A model generated the notes under the pieces. It saw only the letters and a list, made by a program, of their open reading frames with translations, ran no database searches and was not told where the DNA came from. Made by a program: the position numbers and the translations under genes. Shown piece after piece: positions 3,616 through 52,075 of a stretch of 52,529 nt of DNA. Position 1 is the first letter of the stretch, and every line of letters begins with the position of its first letter. Origin of the DNA: a virus. The stretch spans positions 1-52,529 of the IMG/VR virus record IMGVR_UViG_3300032342_000011; one strand, given 5' to 3'.

Positions 3616-3628
3616 ATAAAATTCCCTT

Positions 3629-3862: not shown

Positions 3863-3884
3863 AATTACACTCCTAGGTCGTAAT

Positions 3885-4934: not shown

Positions 4935-4948
4935 AATTTCATCCTATT

Positions 4949-5461
4949 TCATCCTATTTCAAACTTTTGTTTCCTGTTATTTATCAACGAAAAACTCACA
5001 TGAACCCATCCACTCATTGGATCATTTGGTCGGAAATACTCAAGAATCAGTTGATCATATGCAGGTATGTTTTTCTCAACCCAATCTGCAAGTACAGGAT
5101 TTGGAACTCCAGGGATTTGAACGTCAACAGCTTCACCTTTTGGATGGCTCTTGAGAGCAAAATACTGTTTCCATGATTCAGCATTTGCTTTGATTCCCTT
5201 TCGGGCGCACCATGTTTTCCAAGCAGCATCGTTGATTGCTTTTTCGAGTTTCTCACCACGATACCATGATGTTGGTGCAAATGGTATTCCGAAATGTTCA
5301 CGAATTGGATCGAGAACGTTAACAGCAACGGCTTGAGCTGCTACGAGAGTTGGTTGTGTTGGTGTATTATCAATCATTAGACGAGTTGCAGTATCAGACT
5401 TTGCAATCTCATACATCTTGAAGTATCTGCTTATTGGTTTTGTTGGATCATATATTAACAT
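4949..5461 (-). CDS. M15-family zinc D,D-peptidase, probable cell-wall hydrolase
   Basis: A 170-residue protein of the M15 (VanX / D-Ala-D-Ala peptidase / phage endolysin) family. It cuts peptide cross-links of peptidoglycan. Visible are SWYR at 65-68, SHPKGEAVDV at 105-114 giving zinc ligands His106 and Asp113, a likely catalytic Glu141 in LILEYF, and the third ligand His154 in GWVHVSF. There is no signal peptide, so release would need a holin, or the enzyme may be virion-borne. A GGAGATAAAC site precedes the ATG. It is followed by the 166-residue hypothetical gene. Confidence 0.85.
   Translation of the reverse strand: MLIYDPTKPISRYFKMYEIAKSDTATRLMIDNTPTQPTLVAAQAVAVNVLDPIREHFGIPFAPTSWYRGEKLEKAINDAAWKTWCARKGIKANAESWKQYFALKSHPKGEAVDVQIPGVPNPVLADWVEKNIPAYDQLILEYFRPNDPMSGWVHVSFSLINNRKQKFEIG
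4978..4984 (-). promoter_or_regulatory. Possible late-type promoter element ATAAATA
   Basis: ATAAATA lies 44 bases upstream of the ATG at 4934 but inside the coding end of the M15 peptidase gene, where it also encodes Ile-Asn-Asn. It may be coincidental. Two tandem copies of CATCCTATTT follow at 4940-4959. Confidence 0.3.
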
Positions 5462-5491
5462 GTTTATCTCCAGGTTGGATTAGTTCTTGCA

Positions 5492-5977
5492 TCATAATAG
5501 GTCTCCGACGATTTTGTCTTTCAAATACTTATTATAGACATCCGTTGGTGAAACGTTTATCCAAAGGTGTTCAGCAACAGGATGGCATAACATTTGGTGT
5601 TTGTTTAATGAAGGACCAATATTACGATTGAGTTGCGTATAGTCGACGGCAATTACACTTGCTCCGAGTGGTTTATTAACATAAGGACCACCGATAAGTG
5701 CTGTAAATTGACGACCTGGTAGGTCTCTAATTTTTACTGTATCAAGTTGCATTGTCTCCTGATCATAGACAAGCAAGTACCAAATTGTTGGAAGGATTAT
5801 ATCAAATCCTTCAATTCTTATTGTTAGTGCTGGACATGTAATCTCTTCCAAAATTGGAATTGGAGCAAGACAGTAGTCCATTAGAGAAAGATTCAGTATC
5901 CACATATGTCTTGTCACAAGAGGAGTGTACATTGACTCTATTATTATAGGTTTTGTGGCATCGTCAAATATCATCAT
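5492..5977 (-). CDS. Hypothetical protein in the uvsW operon
   Basis: A 161-residue protein starting MMIFDDATKPIIIESMYTP. It is rich in hydrophobic beta-like stretches, with no membrane helix or known motif. Its start overlaps the uvsW stop as ATGA, so it is the last member of the recombination operon in this direction. I do not recognise it. Confidence 0.65.
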   Translation of the reverse strand: MMIFDDATKPIIIESMYTPLVTRHMWILNLSLMDYCLAPIPILEEITCPALTIRIEGFDIILPTIWYLLVYDQETMQLDTVKIRDLPGRQFTALIGGPYVNKPLGASVIAVDYTQLNRNIGPSLNKHQMLCHPVAEHLWINVSPTDVYNKYLKDKIVGDLL

Positions 5978-7491
5978 TTTTGGTCACCAAATCCTGAAAA
6001 GAATTCTCGTTCAAGCCCTGTTGTTTCTTTTGAGTAGTAATCAACGGTATACTTCTTGAACGGATAGTTTGCTTCTTGGTAATACTTTATTCTTTTCTGC
6101 AGATGCTGCTTACTATACTTGAGATCACTACAAATGTCAATGACATCCACGTGATTTTTATCTTTACTCTTTCGAAGTCCACGTCCAATTGCTTGAATCG
6201 TTCGAATAAAAGACTTTCCCATATCAACGAGAACAAGATTAAAAATTCGATCAATGTTAATTCCGACGCCAGCAATCTGCACTGTTGCTATGACAACAAG
6301 ATTGTTATTGTGTTCAAAAAGATCGAATACCTCTTGTCTTGTTTCACGATCCGTTTTTCCTGAGATGAATCTCGACTCAGGAATTATCTTATGTAACTTG
6401 CGCCCAAAAGGAACCGATGTTACAAGACACAAAACATTTCCTTTATGTCTTTGGCTCTTCTCCACCAAAAAGTCAGCAATCCAACTTCGTCGGTCATCAT
6501 TGAGTTCGAGGAACTGCTTCTCAAGTTCATATGTTGTGATCTTTGTGTCGAGATCATAATCATCTACAACGATTTGATCATTAAGTTGCATTGTATGAAC
6601 ATTTAATGTTGCTAACCATCCTTCTGTGATTAGGTCATCTGCAGTAACAGAGAACAATACGTCACCGAGAGCAACCTTAACTGCAAGTTTGTCAGCAGGT
6701 GCTTTCGGAAGAGTTCCTGTTAGACCAATACGGTATGGAATGTGGGCGCCATGGTTGTTAAGAAGTTCAGTAAGGACGCTACTTTTTACTTTATGACACT
6801 CGTCCACTACTACTACTTGAAACTCTTTTAGTACATGTGGGATATTTTTCAATGACTGCCATGTTGTCACCACATGTGTGTGTTTATAGTCCTTAATACT
6901 TGCTGATATTTCGCTAACGTCAAGATTGAAGAACTTGAATTCAGAAACAGTTCTATCAATTAGTGAAAGATTTGGTACAATCGTAATTGTCTTTAGACCC
7001 TGTTTTGCGTAGACATCAACAATACATGCATTTACAGATGTTTTTCCAGCTCCAGTTCCAGCAATAATAATTCCTTTACCTTCAGTAAGGGCATGGTTAA
7101 TTGCATCAACTTGATACCATCGCAATTGATATGGTTCGTTAGTTTTTGGATCTATGAACTCAGAAAAATAGTCACAATCAATTGGATCAATCTCAAGTCC
7201 CTTATGAACACGACGATCGTCAAGTTCTATTTCGTAACCAAATGCAATAACCTTTGGAACGATTTCAGGGAGTAGGTATTGATATGTCTTTCCAGTTTTC
7301 TGAAAAAACCGAATATTGCCGTCCCATTTCTTCAACTTGTATGAAGGAGCGAAAAAGTAGTTTTCCGCACGAACCCCGTACTCCTTATAGAAGTATTCGA
7401 TTTGATCTGGATGTAGACCAGTTATAAAGCAATTGACCTCATCAGTTAGGACTATTTTAGATTTCTTGGTATGTGTTTTCTCTACAATCAT
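5974..7491 (-). CDS. uvsW: UvsW-type superfamily 2 DNA helicase
   Basis: A 505-residue helicase. The N-terminal 120 residues match the small UvsW-specific domain. Walker A GTGAGKT is at 145-151, the DECH box at 231-234, motif III in LTGTLPKAP, and the C-terminal domain carries IQAIGRGLRK (motif VI). In T4, UvsW unwinds and migrates branched recombination intermediates and R-loops and switches origin-dependent replication to recombination-dependent replication. It is coupled to uvsY upstream by an ATGA overlap, an arrangement that fits joint action in strand exchange. Confidence 0.93.
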   Translation of the reverse strand: MIVEKTHTKKSKIVLTDEVNCFITGLHPDQIEYFYKEYGVRAENYFFAPSYKLKKWDGNIRFFQKTGKTYQYLLPEIVPKVIAFGYEIELDDRRVHKGLEIDPIDCDYFSEFIDPKTNEPYQLRWYQVDAINHALTEGKGIIIAGTGAGKTSVNACIVDVYAKQGLKTITIVPNLSLIDRTVSEFKFFNLDVSEISASIKDYKHTHVVTTWQSLKNIPHVLKEFQVVVVDECHKVKSSVLTELLNNHGAHIPYRIGLTGTLPKAPADKLAVKVALGDVLFSVTADDLITEGWLATLNVHTMQLNDQIVVDDYDLDTKITTYELEKQFLELNDDRRSWIADFLVEKSQRHKGNVLCLVTSVPFGRKLHKIIPESRFISGKTDRETRQEVFDLFEHNNNLVVIATVQIAGVGINIDRIFNLVLVDMGKSFIRTIQAIGRGLRKSKDKNHVDVIDICSDLKYSKQHLQKRIKYYQEANYPFKKYTVDYYSKETTGLEREFFSGFGDQK

Positions 7492-7961
7492 GTTATCATG
7501 TAGTCACTTGCCTCAGCGATCTTGAGTCGTGTTACGTTGTTTAACGCATACCCTCTCGTCTCAAACGCTTTGACAATCTCGTCATATTGATCATATCGTT
7601 CTTTGACAGCAAGAAACAGTGAAAGTTGTTTAACATATCTGTTGTCACTCTTTGTATACTGTGTTTTATCACGCCAGTCTAGATCGACGTTAAATCCTTC
7701 TGTGTACTCTCTCCACACTGATCCATGTGCTGAATCAAGTTGACCTTCCATAAACTTTACAATCGCTGCAAGTTCTGCACGTTTCCGTGCATATTCATAG
7801 TAGTATGATGCTTGCTCAATATTAGCACGCTCAATCGTTTTACCTTTGATTCTTATACGCGATTCAACTTCAACCTCATCAATGTTATAAAGTACTAGAA
7901 CATCAGGAAGGTTTGTTAAACTTTCACGTAAAGCTTCAATTGATTCAAGTGCTTGACTCAA
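7488..7961 (-). CDS. uvsY: UvsY-like recombination mediator
   Basis: A 157-residue, highly charged helical protein (T4 UvsY has 137). It shares the UvsY outline: an aromatic/charged helix YYYEYARKRAELAAIVKF, a central YTKSDNRYV and a C-terminal AFETRGYALNNVTRLKI segment typical of the family. UvsY loads UvsX onto gp32-coated single-stranded DNA. Position between uvsX and uvsW supports the call. Both ends overlap neighbours as ATGA. Confidence 0.82.
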   Translation of the reverse strand: MSQALESIEALRESLTNLPDVLVLYNIDEVEVESRIRIKGKTIERANIEQASYYYEYARKRAELAAIVKFMEGQLDSAHGSVWREYTEGFNVDLDWRDKTQYTKSDNRYVKQLSLFLAVKERYDQYDEIVKAFETRGYALNNVTRLKIAEASDYMIT

Positions 7962-8458
7962 TGTAATACCCTTTTTGCTGTAGTAAGTGTTATTGGCACA
8001 TCCTCACTTTCATTCGTAACAGGGTGTTCGATAAGATGATTCTCTTGTAGTGCACGACGTACCTGTTGTGTAATTAATTCCTTCGCAAGTTGTTCCTCTT
8101 CGTCAACTCGTTTTTTAAACTCTTCGTTTGCATTATGAAGGAACACTAGAACATCCTGTCTTGATTGTTTGGCAATTATGTCCATTGGTATCCCAACAGT
8201 TACCACCCTAAATAGGTTTTCTTTTGGATCGACAACAATTCGACCTACAACTACAAGAACGTCTTTATCATTAAGGTGTACTGATACCCAATCGAATTGT
8301 TCTGGTGATTCTTTAAAAAATTCAACGATAGCATCGTACATAAATTGCAGCTGAAGGTTGATTTTTAATGTTATCGTTTTATGAATACCATCTCTTCTTT
8401 CAAACATTTCCTTAAGGTTGTCTTCGAAAAATTTAGGTGTATCAAGTTCAGGATTCAT
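7958..8458 (-). CDS. Hypothetical protein between uvsY and the nucleotidyltransferase
   Basis: A 166-residue protein with charged helices at both ends and a beta-rich middle (WVSVHLNDKDVLVVVGRIVV). The C-terminal third is a Glu/Lys-rich probable coiled coil (about 112-140). A TGGAGTAAC site precedes the ATG. It overlaps the upstream gene by 11 bases and uvsY by 4. No family recognised; operon context suggests a DNA-metabolism role. Confidence 0.65.
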   Translation of the reverse strand: MNPELDTPKFFEDNLKEMFERRDGIHKTITLKINLQLQFMYDAIVEFFKESPEQFDWVSVHLNDKDVLVVVGRIVVDPKENLFRVVTVGIPMDIIAKQSRQDVLVFLHNANEEFKKRVDEEEQLAKELITQQVRRALQENHLIEHPVTNESEDVPITLTTAKRVLH

Positions 8459-9488
8459 TGTTACTCCATATTAGGTCTTGTATGTCCATTAGCAAGTGAG
8501 CTACAAACTTAAGATCCACTGACCGTTGCAATTTTGTTTCTGTATATGCTTGTTTGATTTTTGCATCCATTTCTTCAGAGTACTCAATCAGTTCTTCATA
8601 TGACCACTTTCCGTTGCGAATATCGAGAAGTTCTTTTGCATCATGTCTTCGAACAAACATTTGATGCTGAGTGAGTCCTTCATATCCCATTCTCATTAGA
8701 CGAACAAGATGCATAGCGTGTTTTGTATCATACCCAAATCGTTCTTCGAGTTCTGAACGTGCCTGATTACGATTTTCTTTCCATATCCAATAGTTCTTCC
8801 AGTTTTCATGAGCTTCTTTGAACAATTGCAGATTAACTTTAGCAACCATTAGTGGGGTTTGTTCTGATTCCCAATGTGCAAAAAATTCATTTGTTAAAGG
8901 AGTTGGATTTCCACGTTTATCTAACCATGTTTCACCCTTCCATGGATATACCACATAGTGATTATCGCCAATATCTCTTGCAACAGTGTTTTCCGTTGGT
9001 ACAATCTTATTGAATTCCTTTTTGTCAGTCATATTGAAGACGACAGATGTAAAATCTTTTTGTTGTGGTTCTTCAATAGGTTGAGGATTCATTATCCACT
9101 TATTATGTCCCTTGATCCTTTTCAGTTGTGAAACGGCATAGCCGGAAAATGTATATGCTAGTTTAGATGAAAGTAGTCTATCGCGACTGTTTCTTAACAT
9201 TTCATATGCTGGAGTTCTTATAGTGATGTCACTATCATTGACCCATAATGTTTCAATAATATTTGGATTTTGGTCTATAATAAGTTTGAGAAAGTTTGAC
9301 ACCTCATAGTATTTCGTGTCCTCCCCCTCACCTTCCACTTCACGAACCGGAAAGAATGGTGTTCTAATATTAATTGGTTGAGCAACAAATACTCCACGTA
9401 TGTCTAGGTCTGAAGTAGGTAGAGCTGTACCATAAGCATGGCTACCAGCTCTATGTTCAACAATTATGTTTTGTATATTGTACGTCAT
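8448..9488 (-). CDS. Predicted nucleotidyltransferase (pol-beta fold)
   Basis: A 346-residue protein with the pol-beta nucleotidyltransferase signature near its N-terminus: AGSHAYGT at 14-21 followed by SDLDIRG at 26-32, where Asp27 and Asp29 are the predicted metal ligands. This resembles the COG3541-type predicted nucleotidyltransferases, often considered nucleic-acid repair enzymes. The remainder is mainly helical. It is embedded in the recombination operon between uvsX and uvsY and overlaps both flanking genes. The substrate cannot be told from sequence. Confidence 0.82.
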   Translation of the reverse strand: MTYNIQNIIVEHRAGSHAYGTALPTSDLDIRGVFVAQPINIRTPFFPVREVEGEGEDTKYYEVSNFLKLIIDQNPNIIETLWVNDSDITIRTPAYEMLRNSRDRLLSSKLAYTFSGYAVSQLKRIKGHNKWIMNPQPIEEPQQKDFTSVVFNMTDKKEFNKIVPTENTVARDIGDNHYVVYPWKGETWLDKRGNPTPLTNEFFAHWESEQTPLMVAKVNLQLFKEAHENWKNYWIWKENRNQARSELEERFGYDTKHAMHLVRLMRMGYEGLTQHQMFVRRHDAKELLDIRNGKWSYEELIEYSEEMDAKIKQAYTETKLQRSVDLKFVAHLLMDIQDLIWSNNES

Positions 9489-16378: not shown

Positions 16379-19306
16379 TTAAACAAATCCTGTTACCAGG
16401 GCGACAACGTCATATTTCCCAGCGGAGTTGAGGTATACGAAGCCGATTTTGTCTAATGCGTTCGGCGTTGAACTAGGAGCATACGCGATTATATCTGTTC
16501 CAAAGCGAGTCTCAGAAGTAAATGCTACAGATCTACCACCGGTTCCATCTTGGGTTAAATCCAGTGCACAGCGTTGTCCGTCGTAAGCGTTTGTGTTCGT
16601 AATCTGGATATTTCCCGTCAATGTAATACGAATCACGTCAGCAACAGACCAATCGAGGCTAACTGTTGGCGAATAAGGAACAACAACAATTCGTGGACGA
16701 TGAGGAGAATTTACCCACTCTGCACCATCATAGGTGAGATAATCGTTGTATGCTGGAGTTGTTATTGTAACGTCAGTCAAATCGTCTAGTGATAGAACAA
16801 CAGGAACACTAATTTGAACCCACTGTGCTAACATTGCAGAATAGAAATATGTTGCACCAAAATGTGGAGAATTGCTATCATTGACAAGTGCTGTTATCCC
16901 ATCGTCAGGTGGGGTTGTACCTGGGATACCGTTGTCAGGATTTCGAGTCCAATTACCTCCAACGTTGACTGCTCCACCATTGTATTCAATTAGATCATCA
17001 TCAACAAAGCCCATTCCGATCAATGTTGCACCAGCTGTTCCAAATGTACCAGCAATAACGTATCTGTCACCTACAACAAGTGGTCCTTGTTCAACAATGA
17101 ACCAATCGCCAATATATGGTGAAGTTCCAGTAATCGTAAAGATTGCAACGTCACCATCATCAACAGCTATTGATGTACCAGTCTGTACCCACGTTTCGCC
17201 TTGAACACCTCCATACTTGATGTATGTTAGAGTGTCCCCGATGTTTCCTGCTGCTATTACTGGTTGTGTACTGCGGATATCATTTAAGTTTGGATCACGA
17301 ATTGGATCTACGTATGTAATTCCTGCAGTCGCTGCAGCAACTGCAGCGTCGACATATTGTTTTGTTACTGCACCTAAAGCGGCAACGGGATCTGCATTAA
17401 GAATCAAGAATCCGGTCATTGTATCACCACCGACGTTTACATAAGTAGCGTCAACGAGTGATGTAATATCAAGTGCAACAACAGATGTTGTAGCTGATAC
17501 TCTTCCTTTTGAATCTGTTGTGATCTTAACAAATGAGTTTGTTACTGGTGATCCAAAATCTGCAAGATCTATACTGGTATTTCCTAATACACCACTACCG
17601 TTAAGAACTGTGATATTATTTGGTGTACCTGTGATTGTTCTTGTAACAGCTGTTCCAGAACCAGTACGGACAATGTAACCTGTTGTTCCAAGCGTTGCAA
17701 GTGCTGTTAAATCAGGATCAAATGGTTGATATGTACTAGTTGCAAATGCAAGAGTTACTGGACTAAGAGCTGATATTGGAGGGCCGTTGAGAATCAAAGG
17801 ACCTGTCATTGTACCACCAGATTTTGCTAACTTATTTGTTTCAAGTTGTTGAATCTGTAGTTGTACAGTTGTTGCTGTTAAGCTACCAAATGGTGGAACA
17901 ATAATTTCAAGACCACCATGATTGTGCGGTAATGGATTACGTGCATCTGTTAGTCTTGGATCGTTATCACCAACAGCAATAGGATTACCGGAAGTAACTG
18001 GTGGTAACGAAAGTTTTACAGTACCATATAGAGAAGATGTTGCAAGAACGACTTCGCCTTCAGCTCCTTGAGGACCAGCAACACCAGGACCGCCCATACC
18101 TTGCATGAAGATAATTTGGTTCTTATTAATCGTACGTGCAATTGGTGGTGCTTTTGGACGTGTTGGTGTTGTAATATTAGGATCGGTGGCGGTTAGAGCA
18201 CCACCAGTATCAACCCATAGGGTAACGTTACCACCTGACCAGTTCCATGCGGGATTTGTAACAACACCTTGCAAAATAACAGTTCCAACTTGACCAAATA
18301 GTGTTGTGTCTGTTAGCATACCAAGAATTTTGACATTTGTATCTTCGTATGCAGCTGGAATTAGTTGTGTTGGTGGATTGTTTGAAATTGTAACAACAGA
18401 GTATGCACCGATATTAACCGATGCTGTTCCAAAGATAAACGATTCTTCAAGTTTAATTGGTTGTAATTGTCCAGATCCGATAATAAATGGTGTTTCTGTT
18501 GTGTAGAATTCGCCTGTTAGTTTCTTAACTGCAGCACCAGTTTGATCGTAGAAAATTGGTCCAGAAAGAATTTCTTGGTTGAGGTTTGCTTGAGAACCAG
18601 GACCATAGTCAATTAATGATCCTAGAATAAATGGAGCAGGAGTGTGTGCTAAGTAACCACTAAATGCTGTTGGGTTTGGAATATTCTGGCTAACAGTGAT
18701 TTCTGTTCTGTTTAAAGATGAGTTGAAGGTATATGCTACAATTGTATACACACCATCGTTTCCAGCAGTTTGTGTGATTGTAATTGGATCATTAACAACA
18801 AATTCGCCAGTAACATTATTAGGAACAAAAAATCGTTTATTTGGTTGACTACCACCAATAAGGGGATATGTATTTGTTATCTGTGTGTTCTGCAATCTTC
18901 CTGCAAAACACCGAACCTTCTTTAGCCATGTTGTACCGTTCCAAACATACATTTGTCTGTCAACAGTTGAAAAGAAGTGTTGATCGATAGCTGGCGAGCT
19001 TAGAAGTACTGATCCAAATCGTGGTTCAAGTGTCGTTGTTCCATAACCCTTGTGACCTGTAATAGGATGAATATCCCAATATAACCAATATGTTTCTGTT
19101 GATAGAAATGGTCCAGGAAATGCTAGAATTACAGCATTGTCTGTTTCACGAAGAAGATACTCACTGTCCCCTTGCGAAAATGTAACTAATAGGGAACCAT
19201 TTTGAGTGTTTATGAAGATATCGTTACCAGATAAATTAAGAAAATCTGGCTCGTTGCTTATATTTACAGGTGTTGTAACAATACCTTGGCGAAATGAAAG
19301 TCTCAT
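16379..19306 (-). CDS. Tail fibre protein with conserved receptor-tip-like C-terminus
   Basis: A 975-residue fibre. The N-terminal 400 residues are beta-rich. A short collagen-like stretch GGPGVAGPQGAEGE is near residue 415, and shaft repeats follow (MTGPLILNGPP, MTGFLILNADPVAALGAVTKQYVDA). The C-terminus (DLTQDGTGGRSVAF, then SSTPNALDKIGFVYL, then VVALVTGFV) resembles the tip domain of many phage fibres. Shaft phrases such as RTITGTPNNITVLNGSGV recur in other fibres of this block. An ATAAATA promoter and an AAGGAAT site precede it. Confidence 0.8.
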   Translation of the reverse strand: MRLSFRQGIVTTPVNISNEPDFLNLSGNDIFINTQNGSLLVTFSQGDSEYLLRETDNAVILAFPGPFLSTETYWLYWDIHPITGHKGYGTTTLEPRFGSVLLSSPAIDQHFFSTVDRQMYVWNGTTWLKKVRCFAGRLQNTQITNTYPLIGGSQPNKRFFVPNNVTGEFVVNDPITITQTAGNDGVYTIVAYTFNSSLNRTEITVSQNIPNPTAFSGYLAHTPAPFILGSLIDYGPGSQANLNQEILSGPIFYDQTGAAVKKLTGEFYTTETPFIIGSGQLQPIKLEESFIFGTASVNIGAYSVVTISNNPPTQLIPAAYEDTNVKILGMLTDTTLFGQVGTVILQGVVTNPAWNWSGGNVTLWVDTGGALTATDPNITTPTRPKAPPIARTINKNQIIFMQGMGGPGVAGPQGAEGEVVLATSSLYGTVKLSLPPVTSGNPIAVGDNDPRLTDARNPLPHNHGGLEIIVPPFGSLTATTVQLQIQQLETNKLAKSGGTMTGPLILNGPPISALSPVTLAFATSTYQPFDPDLTALATLGTTGYIVRTGSGTAVTRTITGTPNNITVLNGSGVLGNTSIDLADFGSPVTNSFVKITTDSKGRVSATTSVVALDITSLVDATYVNVGGDTMTGFLILNADPVAALGAVTKQYVDAAVAAATAGITYVDPIRDPNLNDIRSTQPVIAAGNIGDTLTYIKYGGVQGETWVQTGTSIAVDDGDVAIFTITGTSPYIGDWFIVEQGPLVVGDRYVIAGTFGTAGATLIGMGFVDDDLIEYNGGAVNVGGNWTRNPDNGIPGTTPPDDGITALVNDSNSPHFGATYFYSAMLAQWVQISVPVVLSLDDLTDVTITTPAYNDYLTYDGAEWVNSPHRPRIVVVPYSPTVSLDWSVADVIRITLTGNIQITNTNAYDGQRCALDLTQDGTGGRSVAFTSETRFGTDIIAYAPSSTPNALDKIGFVYLNSAGKYDVVALVTGFV

Positions 19307-41448: not shown

Positions 41449-43239
41449 TTAACTGCCATAAATCTTTGAACTGATAGATGATGTGAAGTTAGATGAACTA
41501 CCAGCTGGAATACTGTTTATAGGTGGAACAGTGGTATTTTGACTTCTAACGTCACTACGTGGCTGACCTGATGCATATGGTAAGTTATTGTTCTCAGCAT
41601 GTAGTGTTGCTCTGTGATCAAATCTGTTTGGAGGATCATTTGGTCCTGGTGGATGATTTAACGCAGTTTGGTAATCCACTCTACTTGCTTGAGCTTGCCA
41701 TTCGGGTGTTCCAGGTGGTGCTGTAATCGCATCATATCCAGTATTTGCCTCTCTTGCCATTGCAACTGTTCGTGCATTTCTTGTAGTCGTAGGAGTCGCA
41801 ACGTCCGGAGGAGGTGAAGTAGATGATCCAAATGGTGGAGTAACAGGTGTTGCTGGTGTAACGGCAGCAGTTGTTGTAGGTGTTGGAGCCGCAGTCGGAT
41901 TTGACGCTTGTTGAAACTCTGTTGTCGTTCGTCTGGTTGGTGTTGATATGTTTTGTGGTTGTGGGTTTAACTTTTTCATTCCTTCAAAGTTTAAGTGTTT
42001 AACACCATCAGCAACTGCCCTCTGTAGTTCATTAAGTTGAGTTGCAGTTGAGACTCCAACTTTAAGATCTAACATATCATAGTTGAATGTGAATGTTACC
42101 GAGTTTGTATTTGATTCACTCATGGTTAAGTCATCAAGAGTGAAGTCTGTAATTCTTGGATTGTAGTATTTGTAAATATCAACAAACTTACCGAAACTAT
42201 ATGCGTGGTAGATTGTGATACTTTCAATAATTGCTGTTGCTGATTGACCCTGAGCATTGCCACTCTCATTATATGCCAAAGGACCGAGAGAAGCTGTCCA
42301 TGGGGCATTTGGATTAACAACCTGTTTTAAAGTCCCACTAAAAAATCCCTTGTCGAAATCCATACCAGCAGAGTCAATAATGCCCAAAAGATACTTTGGA
42401 TCTTGTTCTGTAGTTCTCATTACTGGACTAAGAATCTTCATATATGTGTTGAAGAAGTTTAGCGACGAGTTGTCGTTCATATCATGTAATTCAATTGATA
42501 TTGGATCCCAGGACACCCTTTTTGGGATATTTGTACGGAAGTTGTACATATTAACTTCTTCGTGGTCAATTTTATATTTCGGTCTATCGGCTCTTTTTAA
42601 TAGGAACGTAAAGGTTGGATCAAACAAACCAGCAGTTCCAAATGGACCTTTAAATGTTATATCCATGAGAAACAAAAATTTCTGCTTGGGCTGAAATATT
42701 GTTACTAAGTCTTGAGCATAGGATCGTGTAAACTCAAGAGCAGATGGAATTTTGTTTCTGAAATCAATATCTGGAAGTCGTTTCTTACGAAGGAACGTTT
42801 CTGCAAAGATAATAAACCAATGCATCTTAACCAAATCTGCAGGAAGGCTCTCGTAGATTGTTACAGTTGGATACTTAATAAGGTTGAAAATGTAGTTAAG
42901 CGACTTAAATGGACCAAAATTTGCTTTTGATAGTTTCTCGTTAACAATTTGCATGAATAATGAACTAGCAGCAGCTACACCTGCATCAACAACTGGACCA
43001 TTCTCTTGTTGCATAAATGGAATGTCTTCGGGATTAACTCCCATTGCCGATATTAGTTGCTTGTAACCTGTATTAAGAAACGAATCAATAGTACCTTGTG
43101 CTTTGGAAGCAGTGAAATCGTCGATAACTTTATCTACAGCCCCATTAACAGAATTATTAGCCTGAATCAATGTACCAGGATTAACAGGAACAAAAGAAGC
43201 TGGACTACTGTCACTTACAACTTGAAATGGATTTGCCAT
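41449..43239 (-). CDS. Tail-tube-fold virion protein, possible tube initiator (gp54/gp48-like)
   Basis: A 596-residue protein. Residues of about 165-410 (FLMDITFKGPFG, then FTFLLKRADRPKYKIDHEEVNMYN, then VSWDPISIELHDM, then SITIYHAYSFGKFVDI, then VTFTFNYDMLDL) have the tube-protein layout found in gp19, gp48 and gp54. The C-terminal 170 residues are rich in T, P and A and likely disordered. It is directly downstream of gp19 but has its own promoter behind a terminator. Which T4 gene it corresponds to is uncertain. Confidence 0.58.
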   Translation of the reverse strand: MANPFQVVSDSSPASFVPVNPGTLIQANNSVNGAVDKVIDDFTASKAQGTIDSFLNTGYKQLISAMGVNPEDIPFMQQENGPVVDAGVAAASSLFMQIVNEKLSKANFGPFKSLNYIFNLIKYPTVTIYESLPADLVKMHWFIIFAETFLRKKRLPDIDFRNKIPSALEFTRSYAQDLVTIFQPKQKFLFLMDITFKGPFGTAGLFDPTFTFLLKRADRPKYKIDHEEVNMYNFRTNIPKRVSWDPISIELHDMNDNSSLNFFNTYMKILSPVMRTTEQDPKYLLGIIDSAGMDFDKGFFSGTLKQVVNPNAPWTASLGPLAYNESGNAQGQSATAIIESITIYHAYSFGKFVDIYKYYNPRITDFTLDDLTMSESNTNSVTFTFNYDMLDLKVGVSTATQLNELQRAVADGVKHLNFEGMKKLNPQPQNISTPTRRTTTEFQQASNPTAAPTPTTTAAVTPATPVTPPFGSSTSPPPDVATPTTTRNARTVAMAREANTGYDAITAPPGTPEWQAQASRVDYQTALNHPPGPNDPPNRFDHRATLHAENNNLPYASGQPRSDVRSQNTTVPPINSIPAGSSSNFTSSISSKIYGS

Positions 43240-43322: not shown

Positions 43323-43916
43323 TTATGATCCAACAGCAGGACCACCGAGTGCTGAGTTTCCAGATGTATTGAAGAAACGTTGGTATGCATGATCGAACCG
43401 AATCGTCAGGTTGATTTTCCATGTTTCATTTCCAGTACCATATGTACCATTGTTATAGTTAGCAGCTTGAATCCAGCAACCTTCATAGAACCAGATTTCA
43501 AGTGGAGCTTCGTTACCATCGAGAACGTCTAGCTGAACGGCGAATTTATATGAGTTACCATCAATCGCTGTTGCGAGCCATGGACCTTCGACACCAATTA
43601 AGAATTGTTGACGTTGGATTTGAGCTTGAATAATTTTGGACGCACTGCTTGTAATATCATCTTCAATGGTCATTGCAAGCGTTTCCCAAGTATGACGACC
43701 TGCAACCCAACCTCTTGAATTGTAACGGAACAATTCGACTTCTTCGAAAGTTAGATTTGGACGTGCTACTTCGATTGCTTGAACAGAAAGTGCTCTTGAG
43801 TCAGGAAGTCCACCAATGTTGTTAAAAAGCACTCTATATTTGTTAATCAGTTTTGGATGGAGAATCCCCGTTCCACCACCTGGAATTGGAACTCCGAAAT
43901 CATTAATTGTTGCCAT
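43323..43916 (-). CDS. 19: Tail tube protein, gp19
   Basis: A 197-residue protein (T4 gp19 has 163). It begins MATINDFGVPIPGGGTGILH and has LTFEEVELFRYNSRGWVAGRHTWETLAMTIEDDI as spread phrases, then the typical closing INLTIRFDHAYQRF. It polymerises into the rigid inner tube through which DNA passes. The gene lies just after gp18 and is closed by a strong terminator. AAAAAGGAAAC precedes the ATG. The first 19 codons are shared with the gene at 51641-52075. Confidence 0.9.
   Translation of the reverse strand: MATINDFGVPIPGGGTGILHPKLINKYRVLFNNIGGLPDSRALSVQAIEVARPNLTFEEVELFRYNSRGWVAGRHTWETLAMTIEDDITSSASKIIQAQIQRQQFLIGVEGPWLATAIDGNSYKFAVQLDVLDGNEAPLEIWFYEGCWIQAANYNNGTYGTGNETWKINLTIRFDHAYQRFFNTSGNSALGGPAVGS
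43884..43912. repeat. 29-bp exact repeat, copy in gene 19
   Basis: These 29 bases, covering codons 2-11 of gene 19, are identical to 52043-52071 at the start of the 144-residue gene 8 kb away. Similarity continues across the start codon into both ribosome-binding sites. Confidence 0.9.
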
Positions 43917-43970: not shown

Positions 43971-45713
43971 TTATGGAAGATCTGCACCAGTTGCTAGAAT
44001 CCTAATTGGGACGTAGATAAATTCCACTGCCCTTGTTGGTTTTAGAGCAACATCGATGTAAAGTTCATTTCTATCAATACGATCTGGTGTATTGTTTGAG
44101 TCATCACAAATTGTTGCGAAGTCAAATAAACCACGTCGTGCTAAAATATCACCTAAGAAATTGTCGACTACAGCCTTAACGTTATTTCGTGTAATCTGAT
44201 CGTTTGGCTCGAAGAGGAACGGTACAAGATTCTTACGAAGTTGTCGTTTAATGTATCCTAACAGACGTGACACATTAATACGATCCATTGCACTTGCTGC
44301 ATTCTGCGATGTTTTTTGACCAAACAATAGGATACCACGACCTTGCAGATTTGCAATTGGGTTAAGGTTTGTGAAGTACTTATACATGTTGTCACGTTGA
44401 CCTTGGTTTAGAGCAACGGGGATAAACGTTGTAGCTGTTCCTAGAATACCATCAATGTAACCAACGTCTGAGACACTCGTTACTTGACCACGTTGTGTAC
44501 CAGCGGGTGCAAACCAAACTGCTGCCTGATTGTCACTGAAAGCCCATGTACGAAGTGCAATACCACTTGCTGCAATAAACACATCGTGTCCATCAAGATT
44601 TGATGCGAGACCGTGTGGGTAGTAGTAAGCAAGTTTGTTAGAACGTCGACGATCGGACGATACAGAATCACCCCATGTAACGACTTCATCAGCATCCATA
44701 TCAAATGGTGGATCGCCAATGACCATTGCTTCTTCCAGAACATCAACACTCAGTGTGAGCAGTTCATCAACAACTTCGTGATAACCAGGACATAGAATAA
44801 TGTTGTATTCATATGTGTCTGAACGGATATCTTGGTTGCTATTGATTGTTGCTTGCAAAGATTGTACGATTGCTGCACGTCGTGCAGCGTCGTCATTACC
44901 AAGAGTGGTTTCGTTAAGAAATTCTTGTGTGTACTGATAATCAGCCGCTGAATCAATTAATGTTTGTGCTGCTTCTGATGGTGTCCACTCTGTTCCAATA
45001 AGAGTACCAAGACCAAGTGTAACCCATTCGTTTGCAACGCCAGTCAAACCAAGAAATCCTACAACTGCAGGTGGTTGATTGTAGCCGTTGCTGAAGATGT
45101 TTAGTGGATTTGATGTCCAATCTGCTTCAAAATTCGTTCCTGTATTACGGAAAGCATATGCATGGTAAACACTACCGTTCATTGCTGTATGTGCATCTTG
45201 AAGGAATTCGGTTGCATTAACGGTAAGCTTCTCCATTGGATGCCCTGAATAGAAACCGTTTGCTAGGTTGAAGTTAGTGATTCTAGCTTGTGCCAAACTC
45301 TCGAGGACGTTAGCTGCATCATTAACTTTAGCAGCCCATCTTGTTAGAATTGATGTACGTGTGTCATCGAGGTCAACGAACGCACGAATTACATAGGAAA
45401 GGTTGCCAATTCCAAGATATTGGTTAAGAGCAAATAGACCATACTCGTTACGACTATCACCATGAAGCTCATTACCGTTTGTATCTGTAAGGAACTGTGG
45501 AATACCATATAGTGTGACGCTTTGTGATGCTGATGTAACTGTACGAATCACGTCATGTTCATAAGTACCTGCCGCAGGTGAGACACCATCTGGCTGAATC
45601 TTTTCATCTGCTGTAGCAATAAAAATTAAAGGTACAGTCGGAGCTGACGCCGGAATGAAAAATGATTCATCGGTGACTGTGACTGATATACCGGGTGATA
45701 CTAATGTAGTCAT
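43971..45713 (-). CDS. 18: Contractile tail sheath protein, gp18
   Basis: A 580-residue sheath protein (T4 gp18 has 659). The start VSPGISVTVTDESFFIP is the conserved sheath N-terminus. A variable middle domain follows, and the C-terminal core has INVSRLLGYIKRQLRKNLVPFLFEPND, as separate phrases, and RAVEFIYVPIRI. It assembles around the tube and contracts to drive it through the cell envelope. TATAAATA and a CGGAGA site lie upstream. Confidence 0.94.
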   Translation of the reverse strand: MTTLVSPGISVTVTDESFFIPASAPTVPLIFIATADEKIQPDGVSPAAGTYEHDVIRTVTSASQSVTLYGIPQFLTDTNGNELHGDSRNEYGLFALNQYLGIGNLSYVIRAFVDLDDTRTSILTRWAAKVNDAANVLESLAQARITNFNLANGFYSGHPMEKLTVNATEFLQDAHTAMNGSVYHAYAFRNTGTNFEADWTSNPLNIFSNGYNQPPAVVGFLGLTGVANEWVTLGLGTLIGTEWTPSEAAQTLIDSAADYQYTQEFLNETTLGNDDAARRAAIVQSLQATINSNQDIRSDTYEYNIILCPGYHEVVDELLTLSVDVLEEAMVIGDPPFDMDADEVVTWGDSVSSDRRRSNKLAYYYPHGLASNLDGHDVFIAASGIALRTWAFSDNQAAVWFAPAGTQRGQVTSVSDVGYIDGILGTATTFIPVALNQGQRDNMYKYFTNLNPIANLQGRGILLFGQKTSQNAASAMDRINVSRLLGYIKRQLRKNLVPFLFEPNDQITRNNVKAVVDNFLGDILARRGLFDFATICDDSNNTPDRIDRNELYIDVALKPTRAVEFIYVPIRILATGADLP

Positions 45714-45847: not shown

Positions 45848-46621
45848 TTATTCGTTTGATTCACCTAGGACATCATCAACGGTTGCAACAAGTTCGTACT
45901 CATAACCTGCCTCTTCTAGTTGGTCAATAATATCTTGTGGTGTCGTATTAAGGTCTGCTATGTGCCCAATTCGAATGTAAATGTCCTTAATGAAGTCTTG
46001 ACGAACCTTCGTTGGGGCTGTAATCCAAATTGGTATTTGGAACGTCAGTGTTGAAACGATCAATCTGCGATCGGCACCAACAGGATAGTTTTCTTCGAGC
46101 AGGATGTCTGTTAGTTCTAGAATTGTAATCTTAGTCCAATCAAATTCTGAATCGCTAATCTGTATTTGTAGGTTAGGATCAAAGAGAATTAGAATCTGCT
46201 CAAGCATCTGCCAATGTTGATTGGTGTTGCTTGCATAAAGGGCTAATTCGACATCTATGTAATAAGGAATTGGTACCAGTTGGTGAAGTACCTTAATATC
46301 GTCGGGCATTAGTCCACCACGTTGGACATACTTAACTGCTCTCTCGACATTGACCCCCTTACGTCTGTCAGGAGCAAGTCTAACACTCTTCATGTAAGCA
46401 CTCATACGTGGTATTTTTAGAGGAAGGTTTTGTGTGTTTTCATTGAGTATCGCAGCGGCGACTCTATCTTTACTTCCATATGCAACGGGAACATCAATCA
46501 TGTGTTCTTCGCCATCGGATCTTTTTCCAGTCTTGACTTGCAGTCCCTCAAAGATTGCCATGAACTGGACAAGATATCGTGCAAACTGTTGGTCGAAGAA
46601 ATACTTTCTTGTTGGTCTCAT
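45848..46621 (-). CDS. 15: Tail sheath terminator / stabiliser, gp15
   Basis: A 257-residue protein (T4 gp15 has 272). It begins with YFFDQQFARYLVQFMAIFEGLQVK and has IDVPVAYGSKDRV, IPRMSAYMKSVRLAPDRRK, a VPIPYYIDVELALY strand and a MLEQILILFDPNLQI helix, all in gp15 order. It caps the completed tail for joining to the head. AGGAAAG precedes the ATG. It follows gp14 closely. Confidence 0.86.
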   Translation of the reverse strand: MRPTRKYFFDQQFARYLVQFMAIFEGLQVKTGKRSDGEEHMIDVPVAYGSKDRVAAAILNENTQNLPLKIPRMSAYMKSVRLAPDRRKGVNVERAVKYVQRGGLMPDDIKVLHQLVPIPYYIDVELALYASNTNQHWQMLEQILILFDPNLQIQISDSEFDWTKITILELTDILLEENYPVGADRRLIVSTLTFQIPIWITAPTKVRQDFIKDIYIRIGHIADLNTTPQDIIDQLEEAGYEYELVATVDDVLGESNE

Positions 46622-46622
46622 G

Positions 46623-48191
46623 TTACTTTCCTAGCTTACTCATTGGTATTGCATTGCCATCGTTAAGGTAGCTTTGTAATGTTGGTTTTGTTGGATTGTA
46701 ACGCAATCGTTTATCCTCTTCCAAGAATATCCACCTATTTTTCTGTAGCTTCCATCTATATAGTCTTGGTGGTATTGGATCGGAAACTTGTGGATATGTA
46801 ATGCGATGGTATGCCCCATCATTTGGATTCGATGAGTTGTTTTCCCAAGGAAATGCTGGACCTTCAGTGTAAGGTAATCCATTTGGTGGTATTGCATCTT
46901 CAACGTATAGTGCTTGTGGATTAACATTAAGTTTGCTAAGATCAATGTCTTCTTCAGCAGCTGTTGCTAGTTCGTCAAGTGTGAACTCGCGAACGTTTGC
47001 GATATCTTCGCCACGTTCTGGAACCTCTGTATCTGCTTCGGCGTTGACTCTCTGGTTAAGAACATCAGCATCAATCATGTACCTTGGATCGTTAAGGTGC
47101 TCATAGTTATTGACGTTGCTTGGTGGATTTAGGTCACCAAAAATATCGATTGTTTCTTGAGATGCAAATGCTGGTGCTGCAATAACACGAAGTATTGTTG
47201 GTTTCCAACCAGGTGTGAATCCTTGAGTGCTCCAAGAAACGTCTGTGACTTCCAAATACTTCTTTACTGGTTTTAATCCTGGCGTATACTGTATCTCACT
47301 TGGCACTTCTAGAATGTCACCAATCACAAGTGGTCTTCCGAGAAGATTGACGGCAGATGAGAATCCAACTTGAAATACCCACGTTTGTGTTTCGGGGATA
47401 TGAATACCAAAACGTGTTAGGTCAAGAGAAACGTCAACAAGATCGTAGTACGCTTTAATCTGAATACTCGTTGATGCATATTCTCTATCTCTGTTCTCCA
47501 AGAACCCCATCTCGTCTTGAACATCGCTTAATTGTACAGACGCATAGTCAATTAGTTGTAATGAAGTAACAGCCCAAAAATCATTTACACCACCACTAAA
47601 TGCAAGTGGAGTAAATCTCCAGTAACGTGCAGGTGCAGATTGTTTAATTCTTAATGTCACCATGTCATCGGTATCGGGGATTGTGATGATGTCAACCCCA
47701 TACCACTTAACGTTGTCTACTGATCTTTCAACTCTCAACTTAGTTGCTTTATTTGGACCATTACAACCTTGTTTGATTTTAATTGTTGTGATGTGTTGCT
47801 TAATTGAAGTATCAATTCCATAACGAACACGGCTGTTGTCGAGACGAATTGGTCCAAAGTCGTATCCAATATAAGAGTTCCCAATAATCTGTGGACCCTT
47901 TTGTGTCGATCTCCATTCTGATATTGTGTTATCAAACGCATTGGATGCTGGAAATGCTGGATACTGTCCACTTGATATTGCTTGTCCCTGACCAGTTAAA
48001 TCAACAAGTTTTGTCTGTTCCCAAATACCAAGAAGTTTGAATACATTAACTGGAGCTGAGGCAATATTAAGTGCCTCATTGATAATGTTGTTGACAAAGC
48101 TACTATCCTGATCGTTGACAAGTGTAAACTCAGAACAAGGTAAGTCAAGGTTATAGGCACATGGAAGATTTGGATTATTTTTAGTTGTCAT
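46623..48191 (-). CDS. 14: Neck protein gp14 with an inserted F5/8 type C (discoidin)-like domain
   Basis: A 522-residue protein, about twice the length of T4 gp14 (256). Residues of about 75-215 form a discoidin-like domain: YPAFPASNAFDNTISEWRS, then YIGYDFGPIRL, then KLRVERSVDNVKWYG, then PARYWRF and a closing AVTSLQLID. The gp14 part resumes with GDILEVPSEIQYTPGLKPVKK, as split phrases, and YLEVTDVSWSTQGFTP. gp14 forms part of the ring joining head and tail. The extra domain could bind glycans on the neck surface. It is followed by gp15. Confidence 0.75.
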   Translation of the reverse strand: MTTKNNPNLPCAYNLDLPCSEFTLVNDQDSSFVNNIINEALNIASAPVNVFKLLGIWEQTKLVDLTGQGQAISSGQYPAFPASNAFDNTISEWRSTQKGPQIIGNSYIGYDFGPIRLDNSRVRYGIDTSIKQHITTIKIKQGCNGPNKATKLRVERSVDNVKWYGVDIITIPDTDDMVTLRIKQSAPARYWRFTPLAFSGGVNDFWAVTSLQLIDYASVQLSDVQDEMGFLENRDREYASTSIQIKAYYDLVDVSLDLTRFGIHIPETQTWVFQVGFSSAVNLLGRPLVIGDILEVPSEIQYTPGLKPVKKYLEVTDVSWSTQGFTPGWKPTILRVIAAPAFASQETIDIFGDLNPPSNVNNYEHLNDPRYMIDADVLNQRVNAEADTEVPERGEDIANVREFTLDELATAAEEDIDLSKLNVNPQALYVEDAIPPNGLPYTEGPAFPWENNSSNPNDGAYHRITYPQVSDPIPPRLYRWKLQKNRWIFLEEDKRLRYNPTKPTLQSYLNDGNAIPMSKLGK

Positions 48192-48200
48192 TTTTGTGTG

Positions 48201-51197
48201 TTAACCAATTACGAACTGTGTCTCCATGCCGAACTGTTCGACTGTGCTATTAGCAATATAGTCGTCAACTTCCTGTCTGCATGCTGTCATTCGGCGTTCA
48301 GCATCTGCCCGGAGATCAGACGCATTTAGGGCAATTCCCCCACCAGCTCCAGGTAACGTTTGGAAATATCCACGTGTGTTTGCAAGAATCAATTCGGCTT
48401 CTGCAATCGACCACGATTGGATCCAGTTGTTAAGGTATCTATCTCTAATAATGTCTTGTTCGGTTCTCTCAACTGAGCAGTCTATTAGTACTCGTTCTCT
48501 TCTGTTAATACCCTGTAATAGTTGTAGCGTTCGAGCTCTTTCATTCCAAATATAGTTGACACGATTTGCAAATAGAATTTCCATCAATTCGATGTATTCA
48601 CTAATTATGTGATAGCTAACTAAGTCAAATGTTCCCATCTGATATAGATGTTGCAGGGTTAACTGTCCAAAAACACCAGATCCAGCAGCACTTGACATGA
48701 ATGCAGATGTCTTTCTCTTTACTCCAAGAATCTGAACAATTTTGTGATATCCTTTCGTCTTGTCAGACAACACATATGTTTGCTGTCCTGGGTTAAGGTC
48801 AAGGAAGAAGAATTGTCTATCATAAGTGCTGGATGATGTTCTGCGAATCATTTGCAGTGCTTGATCAACGCACCATTCAAGTTGCGGCTTCGTTAATTGC
48901 ACCTGTACACTTGGATGACCAAGAGCAAAAAGAATGTTCTCAATCATCTCTCTACGTTCGTCAGCAGTTCCATCTGTTCCGATACCAATTTGTTTGTACA
49001 TTGGTGTTCGAGAGACTCCATCTGTTCCTGGCACCTCCATCTGTATTTGAGGTGTAACCGTTAGTGGTACATTGTCCAGATCGAACATGTAGTAAGGTGC
49101 TACAATTGGCAGTGGTGTTGGTGGATAAATCTTGAAGAACGCTGTCGATCCTTTCCATCCCGTTGTAAAACACAAATCACCACATTCAGATAACGATACA
49201 GTTACTGGTGGGATAGCTGCAACCCACGTTGTACCATTCCAGATCATTAACTTGTTATTTGTTGTATCATACCACTCAGTACCAACAGTTGGTACTAATG
49301 GTGATGTTGTATACGCTAGTGGTATCCAAACGAGTCCGTTCCATTGATATAGTTGATCATTGTTTGATGTATCAATCCAATACTGTCCTGCTGCTGGAGA
49401 TGTTGGTTGAGTCTGGTATTCCGTTGGAAAGATCTCGACCCAAATACCACCACTTCGAACATACCATTTATCGTTTGTGATGTCATACCAATACACACCG
49501 TTTACAATTATCGTTGGATCTGTTGGATACGAAATGTAGTTACATGCAACCCATTGTGAGCCATCCCAAATGTACAATACGTTTGTGACGTTGTTATACC
49601 ATGCAGCCATATTTTGTTCGTAAAGGATTTGCTCTGCTGGATCATCAGGTTGACTATAAAAGTATGGAACTTGTACCCACGAATTCGTAATAACACTCCA
49701 TTCGTAGAGGAAATTATTTGTTGTATCAAGCCACAAAGCGCCTGGTGGAGGTGTTGTTGGAATATATGTTGATATCAAAACTGGTGTTACAACCCATACA
49801 AGACCATCCCAAATTGACAACACTTTAGTTGTTGTATTAAACCAAGGTTGGTTAATTGCAGGATTAACGGGAGCAGTTGGTGAGAAAACAGCATTCGTTA
49901 TAATTCCCCACAACACGCCATTAAATTGTTTGATTTTTGTGTTAACAGTATCATACCAATATGTGCCGATTGGTGATAGAACAGGATCTGTTGGAGCAGC
50001 AAGGAATGTTACTTCAACCCAATGACCATCTTCAAGATCGTCCCCAATGGGACAAGATCCAGTAATATCAACCCATTTATATAACTTCCCACTATCGGTA
50101 TCATACCAATAAGCACCACATTGAATGACATTGAACGAAGGATCAGAACTCTGTATAAATGTCGTTAGTGGAATCCATACTGTACCATCCCAACGATATA
50201 CAGTAACACCATCAAACCACAATGTACCACATGGCATGTTTGTTGGATCACCAGCAACAGAAATCTTATTAAGAAGAACCCATGTTAGTTCATTCCATTG
50301 GAATAATTGATTTGTATCGGTATCGACCCAGTAGTCTCCAACTGCTGGCATTGTTGGTTGTGTTAGACTAAAGATTGGATCTAGAAGAATGTTTGAATAT
50401 CCGTTCCACTGATACAGTTTCTTATTAACTGTGTCATAAAAGTATCCACCTGTATTTGGTGGTAACATTCCCTGAAATGGATTACCAAAGATTGCAAACT
50501 TGTAGTTAAGTTCATCAACCAATCCTTCCCATATGATTGCATCTTGACCATTAAACGTGATTATTGATGCAGGAACAGCACATGGTACTGGTGGTGGAAG
50601 TCGTCCTAAATCATCTACCCAATTGTAATTTGGTGGAAGTTGATTAAGATAGAATGGAAGTTGGTACGTTACCCCAGTTTGGTATCCTGTTAGATCACTT
50701 GGTTGAACACCAAGAGTAACACACTGATATGCTGCTTGATCTGGTGATCCACTACCACCATATTGTAGTGAGTATGTGTGAACGCCTTCGTAGTGATATC
50801 GAAGAACATTATCTACAGCAAATCCTGCAATGTAGTAGCTTTGATTTGCAACTAAATTGGTGATTGTAAGTGTTGTTGTTTCTTTGTCATCATAAAATCC
50901 ACCAACAACAAGTCCTGTACTAATCTTATCACCAGCATGAATATCTGGATTAGCAGTTGGATCTGGACTATAACGTGTACCATCAATTGGGGTTTGATCG
51001 AGACTAATTGGAATTGTATCAAGAACAATCACGATTCCATCATATGCGAGATCGTCAACTGTACATCCCGCACCAAACTTCGGAAGTGTCCATGTTACTT
51101 CACCAGTTGTTGGACTTGTTCTTGTTAGTCGAATTGATATTTCTCGACCATTCTGAATAATTTGTTCGGGGGTGTCTGCGTAAACGCCGTATGCCAT
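48201..51197 (-). CDS. 13: Giant neck protein: Fn3-like domain, eleven repeats and a gp13-like C-terminus
   Basis: A 998-residue protein (T4 gp13 has 309). Residues 10-140 resemble a fibronectin-III-type domain (EVTWTLPKFGAG, then TLTITNLVANQSYYIAGF). About residues 230-670 hold eleven repeats of 35-45 residues with the consensus P..P..G.YWYDT....LY.WNG..WV. The C-terminal 260 residues (MIENILFALGHPSVQVQLTKPQLEWCVDQAL, as split phrases, then YLNNWIQSWSIAEAELIL) match gp13-type neck proteins. It is the first gene of the neck-tail operon, under its own ATAAATA promoter, with CAGGAG before the ATG. Confidence 0.75.
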   Translation of the reverse strand: MAYGVYADTPEQIIQNGREISIRLTRTSPTTGEVTWTLPKFGAGCTVDDLAYDGIVIVLDTIPISLDQTPIDGTRYSPDPTANPDIHAGDKISTGLVVGGFYDDKETTTLTITNLVANQSYYIAGFAVDNVLRYHYEGVHTYSLQYGGSGSPDQAAYQCVTLGVQPSDLTGYQTGVTYQLPFYLNQLPPNYNWVDDLGRLPPPVPCAVPASIITFNGQDAIIWEGLVDELNYKFAIFGNPFQGMLPPNTGGYFYDTVNKKLYQWNGYSNILLDPIFSLTQPTMPAVGDYWVDTDTNQLFQWNELTWVLLNKISVAGDPTNMPCGTLWFDGVTVYRWDGTVWIPLTTFIQSSDPSFNVIQCGAYWYDTDSGKLYKWVDITGSCPIGDDLEDGHWVEVTFLAAPTDPVLSPIGTYWYDTVNTKIKQFNGVLWGIITNAVFSPTAPVNPAINQPWFNTTTKVLSIWDGLVWVVTPVLISTYIPTTPPPGALWLDTTNNFLYEWSVITNSWVQVPYFYSQPDDPAEQILYEQNMAAWYNNVTNVLYIWDGSQWVACNYISYPTDPTIIVNGVYWYDITNDKWYVRSGGIWVEIFPTEYQTQPTSPAAGQYWIDTSNNDQLYQWNGLVWIPLAYTTSPLVPTVGTEWYDTTNNKLMIWNGTTWVAAIPPVTVSLSECGDLCFTTGWKGSTAFFKIYPPTPLPIVAPYYMFDLDNVPLTVTPQIQMEVPGTDGVSRTPMYKQIGIGTDGTADERREMIENILFALGHPSVQVQLTKPQLEWCVDQALQMIRRTSSSTYDRQFFFLDLNPGQQTYVLSDKTKGYHKIVQILGVKRKTSAFMSSAAGSGVFGQLTLQHLYQMGTFDLVSYHIISEYIELMEILFANRVNYIWNERARTLQLLQGINRRERVLIDCSVERTEQDIIRDRYLNNWIQSWSIAEAELILANTRGYFQTLPGAGGGIALNASDLRADAERRMTACRQEVDDYIANSTVEQFGMETQFVIG
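49210..50500 (-). repeat. Eleven-copy YWYDT...WNG..WV coding repeat
   Basis: Degenerate tandem repeats of about 105-135 bases inside the neck gene. The most recognisable plus-strand remnants are recurring CCATTCCA/TTCCATTG and ATCATACCA words, complements of the WNG and WYD(T) codons. Copies differ enough to be old at the DNA level. Confidence 0.75.
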
Positions 51198-51640: not shown

Positions 51641-52075
51641 TTAGATGCGTTCTGTCTTGTGCATCCAGTAATCATTTGTTACAGCAAACTTGACCGCAAA
51701 CGAACATCTGCGATCGTCAAGTACGACTGATTCTATGTATGTCTGATATAGAACGACCCACTCACTCGTCTTTTGATTGACACATGCAATTGAACATTGA
51801 TTACTACCAGAAAGTTTACCAAAGATCCGTTGGAATTTTTCGATCTCATCTTCACCATTAAGTTCAGATGGTAACCTAAATGACCTACAAAAAGTTATAA
51901 TAACACCTCTTTCAATAACCTCAAACTTTGTCACTTCTCCATGAAGAAACAAGAATTCATCTTGTGTTAACTGTGGTGCAGCTATTATAGCATGTATGTT
52001 GGGACGTCGAAGGGGCCACAAAACACCTTCGCCAGTACCAGCAATTGGAACTCCGAAATCATTAATTGTTGTCAT
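51641..52075 (-). CDS. Protein with a tail-tube-like N-terminus, otherwise diverged
   Basis: A 144-residue protein. Its start MTTINDFGVPIAGTGEGVL is nearly that of gp19, and 29 bases are identical. After residue 20 the similarity fades (SFAVKFAVTNDYW weakly recalls YKFAVQLDVLDG in gp19), and it lacks the gp19 closing strand. It could be a specialised tube or neck-interface protein, or a gene whose 5' end was overwritten by recombination with gene 19. AAAAAGGAGAC precedes the ATG. Confidence 0.65.
   Translation of the reverse strand: MTTINDFGVPIAGTGEGVLWPLRRPNIHAIIAAPQLTQDEFLFLHGEVTKFEVIERGVIITFCRSFRLPSELNGEDEIEKFQRIFGKLSGSNQCSIACVNQKTSEWVVLYQTYIESVVLDDRRCSFAVKFAVTNDYWMHKTERI
52043..52071. 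repeat. 29-bp exact repeat, copy in the 144-residue gene
   Basis: Second copy of the 29-bp sequence at 43884-43912, in the same orientation. Confidence 0.9.

Follow-up and report, generated by a model that had tools for sequence, protein, structure and literature searches.

Large added domains on the gp13- and gp14-type neck proteins of a jumbo-phage lineage: a possible built-in collar

The neck of phage T4 consists of a dodecamer of the gp13 adaptor, a hexamer of the gp14 stopper and the fibritin (wac) collar and whiskers. Domain III of gp13 is the fibritin-binding part; helix 1 of gp14 wraps the adaptor loop of gp13, and the strands that follow form a barrel with the stopper loop (PMC12270204). 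Cyanophage A-1(L) carries bead-like neck appendages (gp82-gp81-gp80), one of them with a carbohydrate-binding module; these are separate proteins on a pentadecameric gp5 and are not fused to adaptor or stopper (PMC10966104). The collar of phage Milano (Milano gp13) places beta-rich domains of a glycan-binding-type fold around the neck, as is predicted here, but is again a separate protein, in four disulphide-linked rings of 15 (PMC10491603).

The window analysed here is a whole virus record of 52.5 kb (IMGVR_UViG_3300032342_000011, 52,529 nucleotides). It resembles T4 in its gp13 core (by profile and fold), in a gp14-like core, in gene order and, as predicted here, in a decorated neck. Unlike T4, which attaches separate fibritin trimers through gp13 domain III, the predicted decoration belongs to the gp13 and gp14 chains, and neither domain III (in gp13) nor fibritin (in the relatives searched, see below; the window is a genome fragment) was found. 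An earlier note, made from the letters alone, had given 998 and 522 residues for the two proteins, against 309 and 256 in T4. All four lengths are correct, and both genes are intact on the minus strand. Three more contigs from the public viral collection encode the identical gp13 protein sequence, which is thus not an assembly accident. The features of the locus are as follows.

48201..51197, minus strand: gp13-type head-tail adaptor gene, 998 aa, with an N-terminal extension of about 736 residues (profile and fold match)
50757..51170, minus strand: Fn3-like N-terminal domain, residues 10-147 (AlphaFold model, Foldseek FnIII matches, conservation in 47 relatives)
50478..50756, minus strand: split beta domain, first half, residues 148-240 (joined-halves profile spans the junction in uninterrupted copies)
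49209..50477, minus strand: array of eleven Trp-rich units of about 39 residues, residues 241-663, consensus IISPTDPTTPPTGTYWYNTTTNTLYQWDGTTWVEVTVII (unit profile)
49110..49208, minus strand: split beta domain, second half, residues 664-696 (joined-halves profile)
48204..48989, minus strand: gp13 core, residues 737-998, without the T4 fibritin-binding domain III (profile and fold)
46623..48191, minus strand: gp14-type head-closure gene, 522 aa (between gp13 and gp15; hhalign 70.6%, E 3.9e-5)
48021..48128, minus strand: gp14 helix 1 and strand 1, residues 22-57, ending at the insertion site (model helix 28-44, strand 46-51; short-homologue alignment)
47538..48020, minus strand: inserted discoidin/CBM32-fold domain of gp14, residues 58-218 (profile, model, short-homologue alignment)
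47136..47537, minus strand: gp14 beta core, residues 219-352 (phrog_11591; alignments)
45848..46621, minus strand: gp15-type tail sheath stabiliser, context (Pfam T4-gp15_tss, 3.4e-38)
43971..45713, minus strand: tail sheath gp18, context (phrog_10581, 1.5e-164)

On the minus strand the genes run gp13, gp14-like, gp15, tail sheath, tail tube, a second tube-like protein and a gp4-type head closure, followed downstream by further genes and then the large terminase. The gp13-gp14-gp15-sheath order is common to the window and its relative L005. The second tube-like protein (596 aa, 41449-43239, minus strand) adjoins the normal tube gene and matches the tube family at residues 180-398. A 144-aa protein at 51641-52075 (minus strand) begins MTTINDFGVPIAGTGEGVLWP; 15 of 21 residues are shared with the N-terminus of the tail tube protein (43323-43916), and its remainder has no BLASTP similarity to that protein.

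The 998-residue protein belongs to the gp13-type head-tail adaptors: its C-terminal 262 residues match T4 gp13 by both profile and fold. It matches the PHROGs family of head-tail adaptor Ad2 (phrog_211) at 5e-155; since the profile of this family is 976 positions long, the long form is presumably already in that database, without comment. A profile of 47 relatives matches the PDB chains of T4 gp13 at 1.4e-12 and, with hhalign, T4 gp13 at 98.4%. T4 residue 6 (of 309) pairs with residue 745 of the window protein, so that the extension is strictly N-terminal. The AlphaFold model, a single chain with a mean pLDDT of 82.8, has as its top PDB fold match T4 gp13 in the portal-neck-tail complex (9mkb_Ar; Foldseek E 6.7e-9, TM (target) 0.55). 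Structure prediction and profiles thus bear out the earlier note's view that the C-terminal part is gp13-like. Beta-propeller receptors also appear among the fold matches of the model, but with deviations of 37-52 A, and they were not read as evidence. Domain III is absent from the core of the window protein, but also from short-form relatives, so that its lack does not depend on the extension having been gained. In prokaryote genome contigs, two distant gp13 loci were seen, both core-only matches, in a Rickettsiales MAG.

Taken alone, the repeats of the extension resemble tail-fibre segments, and the two proteins could conceivably be tail fibres with a borrowed neck-like domain. We regard the chance of this as negligible. 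The whole T4 gp13 core is present, conserved and of near-constant length among the relatives; no other gp13 candidate was found in the window or in related loci; and the gp13-gp14-gp15-sheath-tube order, together with the profile and fold identities, marks these as neck proteins, in agreement with the earlier note. It is also very unlikely that the extension serves in assembly only, as a chaperone or timing segment, or that it is removed by protease or bypassed by an internal start, leaving a mature ring of T4 size. T4 gp13 and gp14 do need each other for ring formation (PMC12270204), but the domains added here are of virion-surface types and there is no conserved internal start: a short gp13 starting at Met733 was rejected, this residue being present in 11 of 47 relatives only, with no evident ribosome site.

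The 522-residue protein is moderately supported as gp14-type, on synteny and a profile match of middling strength. Neither Pfam (Hc2, PF11649) nor PHROGs gave a gp14 family match for it; its core matches a PHROGs virion structural protein family (phrog_11591) at 1.4e-19. The hhalign comparison with eight T4-type gp14 sequences listed above preserves the order of helix 1 and strand 1. The gene lies between gp13 and gp15 in the window and in L005, and in PA5oct it adjoins a gp15-like protein. T4 gp14 is not among the best 50 of the 196 Foldseek PDB matches (E<=0.001) of the gp14 model, which are filled by the discoidin domain, with CBM32 and discoidin-type folds dominating.

This domain, of about 160 residues, is inserted directly after helix 1 and strand 1. 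The model of gp14 has pLDDT values mostly of 86-95 within it and matches CBM32 modules at E 3e-8 with 18% identity. By Pfam, an F5/8 type C (discoidin) match at residues 72-199 scores 24.7 bits, just under the cut-off of 28.2, and the same family is matched in 44 of 58 relatives at E<=0.01 (best E 4e-8). The discoidin-like insertion reported by the earlier note is therefore sustained. The short gp14 homologues of PA5oct, Atu_ph07, Phosso and SCTP-2 have no such domain, a short linker joining strand 1 to the core. The fold is that of CBM32 and discoidin (F5/8 type C) domains in general, here placed within a loop of a phage ring protein, where glycan or lipid binding is putative. Two relatives, L165 (7626-9587) and L196 (6330-8249), have gp14 inserts of up to about 270 residues at the same site without a discoidin profile match; these are longer and diverged, and appear to contain another inserted segment. 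In Synechococcus phage S-BM1 (L301:1312-2775), gp14 is 487 aa long and its Pfam gp14 match is limited to residues 25-190, indicating that gp14 has been enlarged elsewhere in another form.

The extension of gp13 begins with a domain that folds like FnIII (4wtx and others; Foldseek probability 1.00, TM (target) 0.5-0.7). Pfam fn3 has no match in the window protein and matches 2 of 47 relatives at E<=0.01; the domain, which the earlier note had recognised, is accordingly labelled Fn3-like. It is followed by eleven Trp-rich units, the eleven repeats which the note had placed ahead of the core. They lie at residues ~246-661, and each is individually significant (E 8e-9 to 9e-14), so that the repeats are not due to chance. 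The note overlooked that the array sits in a loop of a further beta domain, made up of residues ~148-240 and 664-696. A profile made by joining residues 148-238 to 664-696 runs across the junction to uninterrupted copies in loci L107 (residues 516-608 of ORF 3127-5625), L085 and L067, and also matches the tail sheath of L005. In L107 (3127-5625) and L085 (4044-5852) a protein encoded between gp13 and gp14 has up to seven copies of this domain, and these multi-copy proteins match no family with known function. The L005 sheath (6686-8782) holds one copy as an insert; the shorter sheath of the window does not.

The Trp-unit has no significant match among PDB sequences and falls into no consistent Pfam family, DUF2793 being hit by one of the 47 relatives. 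The unit also occurs in tail fibres of Vibrio phages and in minor tail proteins of Arthrobacter and Microbacterium phages, and the fold matches of the region include collagen-like proteins of Orpheovirus, a giant virus. Within the window, a 975-aa protein with tail assembly and structural matches (16379-19306, minus strand) has one Trp-unit at open-frame residues 105-128 (E 1.5e-5). The conserved Trp/Gly stretch at the C-terminus of gp14 (431-500) looks like a twelfth repeat by eye, but the repeat profile does not match it.

The unit count is exactly 11 in 65 of 86 long-form genes. Among 42 distinct eleven-unit proteins, units found their best match in another phage at the corresponding position in 50% of cases (9% expected by chance), and the similarity of units at unlike positions was no higher across phages than inside a single phage (0.27). 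Judged by these comparisons the eleven units are orthologous by position, with their number and order fixed, and a fast-changing tandem array is ruled out.

These additions are not peculiar to one phage. Full-length relatives were found in the isolates XacN1, RAS14 and CM1 (among 50,697 phage records) and in many IMG/VR contigs, so that the group has dozens of members, at least three of them cultured phages. The XacN1, RAS14 and CM1 proteins have the same full-length architecture at 34-45% identity; they are annotated as hypothetical and are not described as such a group in the literature found. Extra searches used gp13 cores only, of the long and the short kind, thereby avoiding the bias of using the additions as queries. 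Of the 88 long-form gp13 genes, all but one (87) have a discoidin gp14 nearby; the locus of the remaining gene contains no gp14. The 69 mid-form genes (2-4 units) divide into 61 with a discoidin gp14, 6 without gp14 in the locus and 2 whose insert, at the same site, is longer and diverged. Short-form genes (n=86) are accompanied by a domain-less gp14 in 65 instances and by no nearby gp14 in 21. Where both anchors were found, the gp14 insert is 174-272 aa long beside 108 of 108 extended gp13 genes, and such an insert is seen beside 0 of 60 unextended ones (17-76 aa); all these counts include near-copies.

In a tree of 94 distinct gp13 cores, made by a quick search and rooted by choice on short forms, a branch with support 95 separates the extended forms from the others, and they divide into two sister clades: mid (2-4 units) and long (8-15 units, mostly 11). 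It follows from this topology that the long clade gained the beta domain and the majority of its units. For RsoM2USA, published coordinates give a neck protein of 493 aa, likely a 2-unit form. The combined alignment of long and short cores was too diverse for scanning.

Extended forms occur in records of ~320-390 kb. This would suit a purely bracing role, in which the extensions reach the portal-vertex capsid or run along the sheath, thereby reinforcing the joint of a head that is very large and highly filled. T4 gp13, through its swing domain, contacts the capsid protein (PMC12270204), the Milano collar links neck to sheath (PMC10491603), and the extensions are highly conserved and fixed in length. 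However, a short gp13 is found in RaK2-like and other jumbo phages whose genomes are similar in size or larger, so size alone needs no extension, and of the large parts of the protein the array is the least conserved. We consider bracing as the sole role rather improbable.

Receptor-binding parts are usually more variable than the core. Mean pairwise identity is 46% for the Fn3-like domain (in 47 relatives), 49% for the gp13 core, 51% for the discoidin domain, 53% for the gp14 core and 34% for the array. The Fn3-like and discoidin domains are thus as conserved as the cores, unlike the usual receptor-binding parts, which weakens the reading of the additions as adhesins. According to that reading, the CBM32-type discoidin domain and the Trp-units bind cell-surface glycans and help the phage to land on, or stay near, its host. 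The discoidin fold does match CBM32 modules that bind galactose, GlcNAc and chitosan, units rich in aromatic residues are suited to binding glycans, and the Trp-unit, as noted, is present in tail fibres and minor tail proteins. Moreover, XacN1 is reported to have neither visible tail fibres nor tail-fibre homologues (PMC5852040); this hint is weak, as RsoM2USA, which falls in one clade with XacN1 in published trees, has tail fibres of 70 nm. Against host binding stand the conservation of both domains across phages that differ by half their residues, the fixed number and order of the units, and the finding that the carbohydrate-binding module of the A-1(L) neck fibre, the one tested, did not bind the host (PMC10966104). 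We keep the adhesin as a serious, if unlikely, alternative. The earlier note had predicted a joint decorated with binding domains, perhaps a collar adhering to host or particle surfaces. Large added domains of surface type are indeed found on both neck proteins, and a collar is the best reading of them, though as a predicted integral structural collar in which adhesion is optional; adhesion as the stated role is disfavoured by the conservation of the domains and the positional orthology of the units.

Conserved Fn3-like and discoidin domains, together with units fixed in position, point to a structure that does not vary: probably a collar or arm integral to the neck, in the place where T4 attaches fibritin. 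A search for Fibritin_C in six relatives of 320-389 kb (XacN1, RAS14 and four contigs of 345-389 kb) gave no match, while the T4 control was found; a T4-type whisker is hence not expected, though a different fibre could exist. We favour, at a probability of about one half, the reading that the two proteins form the adaptor and stopper rings in a jumbo-phage neck of T4-like type, with the collar built in. By analogy with T4, twelve gp13 and six gp14 subunits would form stacked rings, giving per virion about twelve arms, 132 Trp-units and six discoidin domains. The T4 channel bore of 44-56 A is too narrow to have room for the added domains, which would all lie outside. The Fn3-like and discoidin domains may pack together, or on gp15 or the capsid, as a conserved inner collar from which the arrays would project as arms of fixed length. 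These arms would probably do the job of separate whisker or neck-fibre proteins: bracing the joint, holding tail fibres, or making weak surface contact.

Both AlphaFold models are of single chains, with pTM 0.48-0.49, so that any relative placement of the domains is tentative. With core distances removed (33 taxa), the distances of the discoidin domain are correlated with Fn3-like (partial r 0.43) and array (0.45) distances and not with split-domain ones (-0.03); the known contact pair of the gp13 and gp14 cores gives 0.57 in the same analysis. This residual correlation suggests contact of the discoidin domain with the Fn3-like domain or the array, but it may contain phylogeny left after removal of the core distances, and the co-occurrence of the additions may reflect one ancestral event instead of contact. 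We consider it rather unlikely that this one jumbo-phage lineage has a distinct neck class in full, with a fused collar, Fn3-like and discoidin domains that have co-evolved and touch, and twelve eleven-unit arms as its appendages.

Neck appendages are known as separate proteins whose roles are debated; here the predicted decoration belongs to the rings of the genome gate themselves. From the strict pairing one would expect the gp13 extension to touch the gp14 insert, a contact which has not been looked for in the literature found, and the lineage includes cultured phages, hence is open to cryo-EM and testing. If the distinct neck class were true, the genome gate would be directly coupled to domains sensing the outside of the particle.
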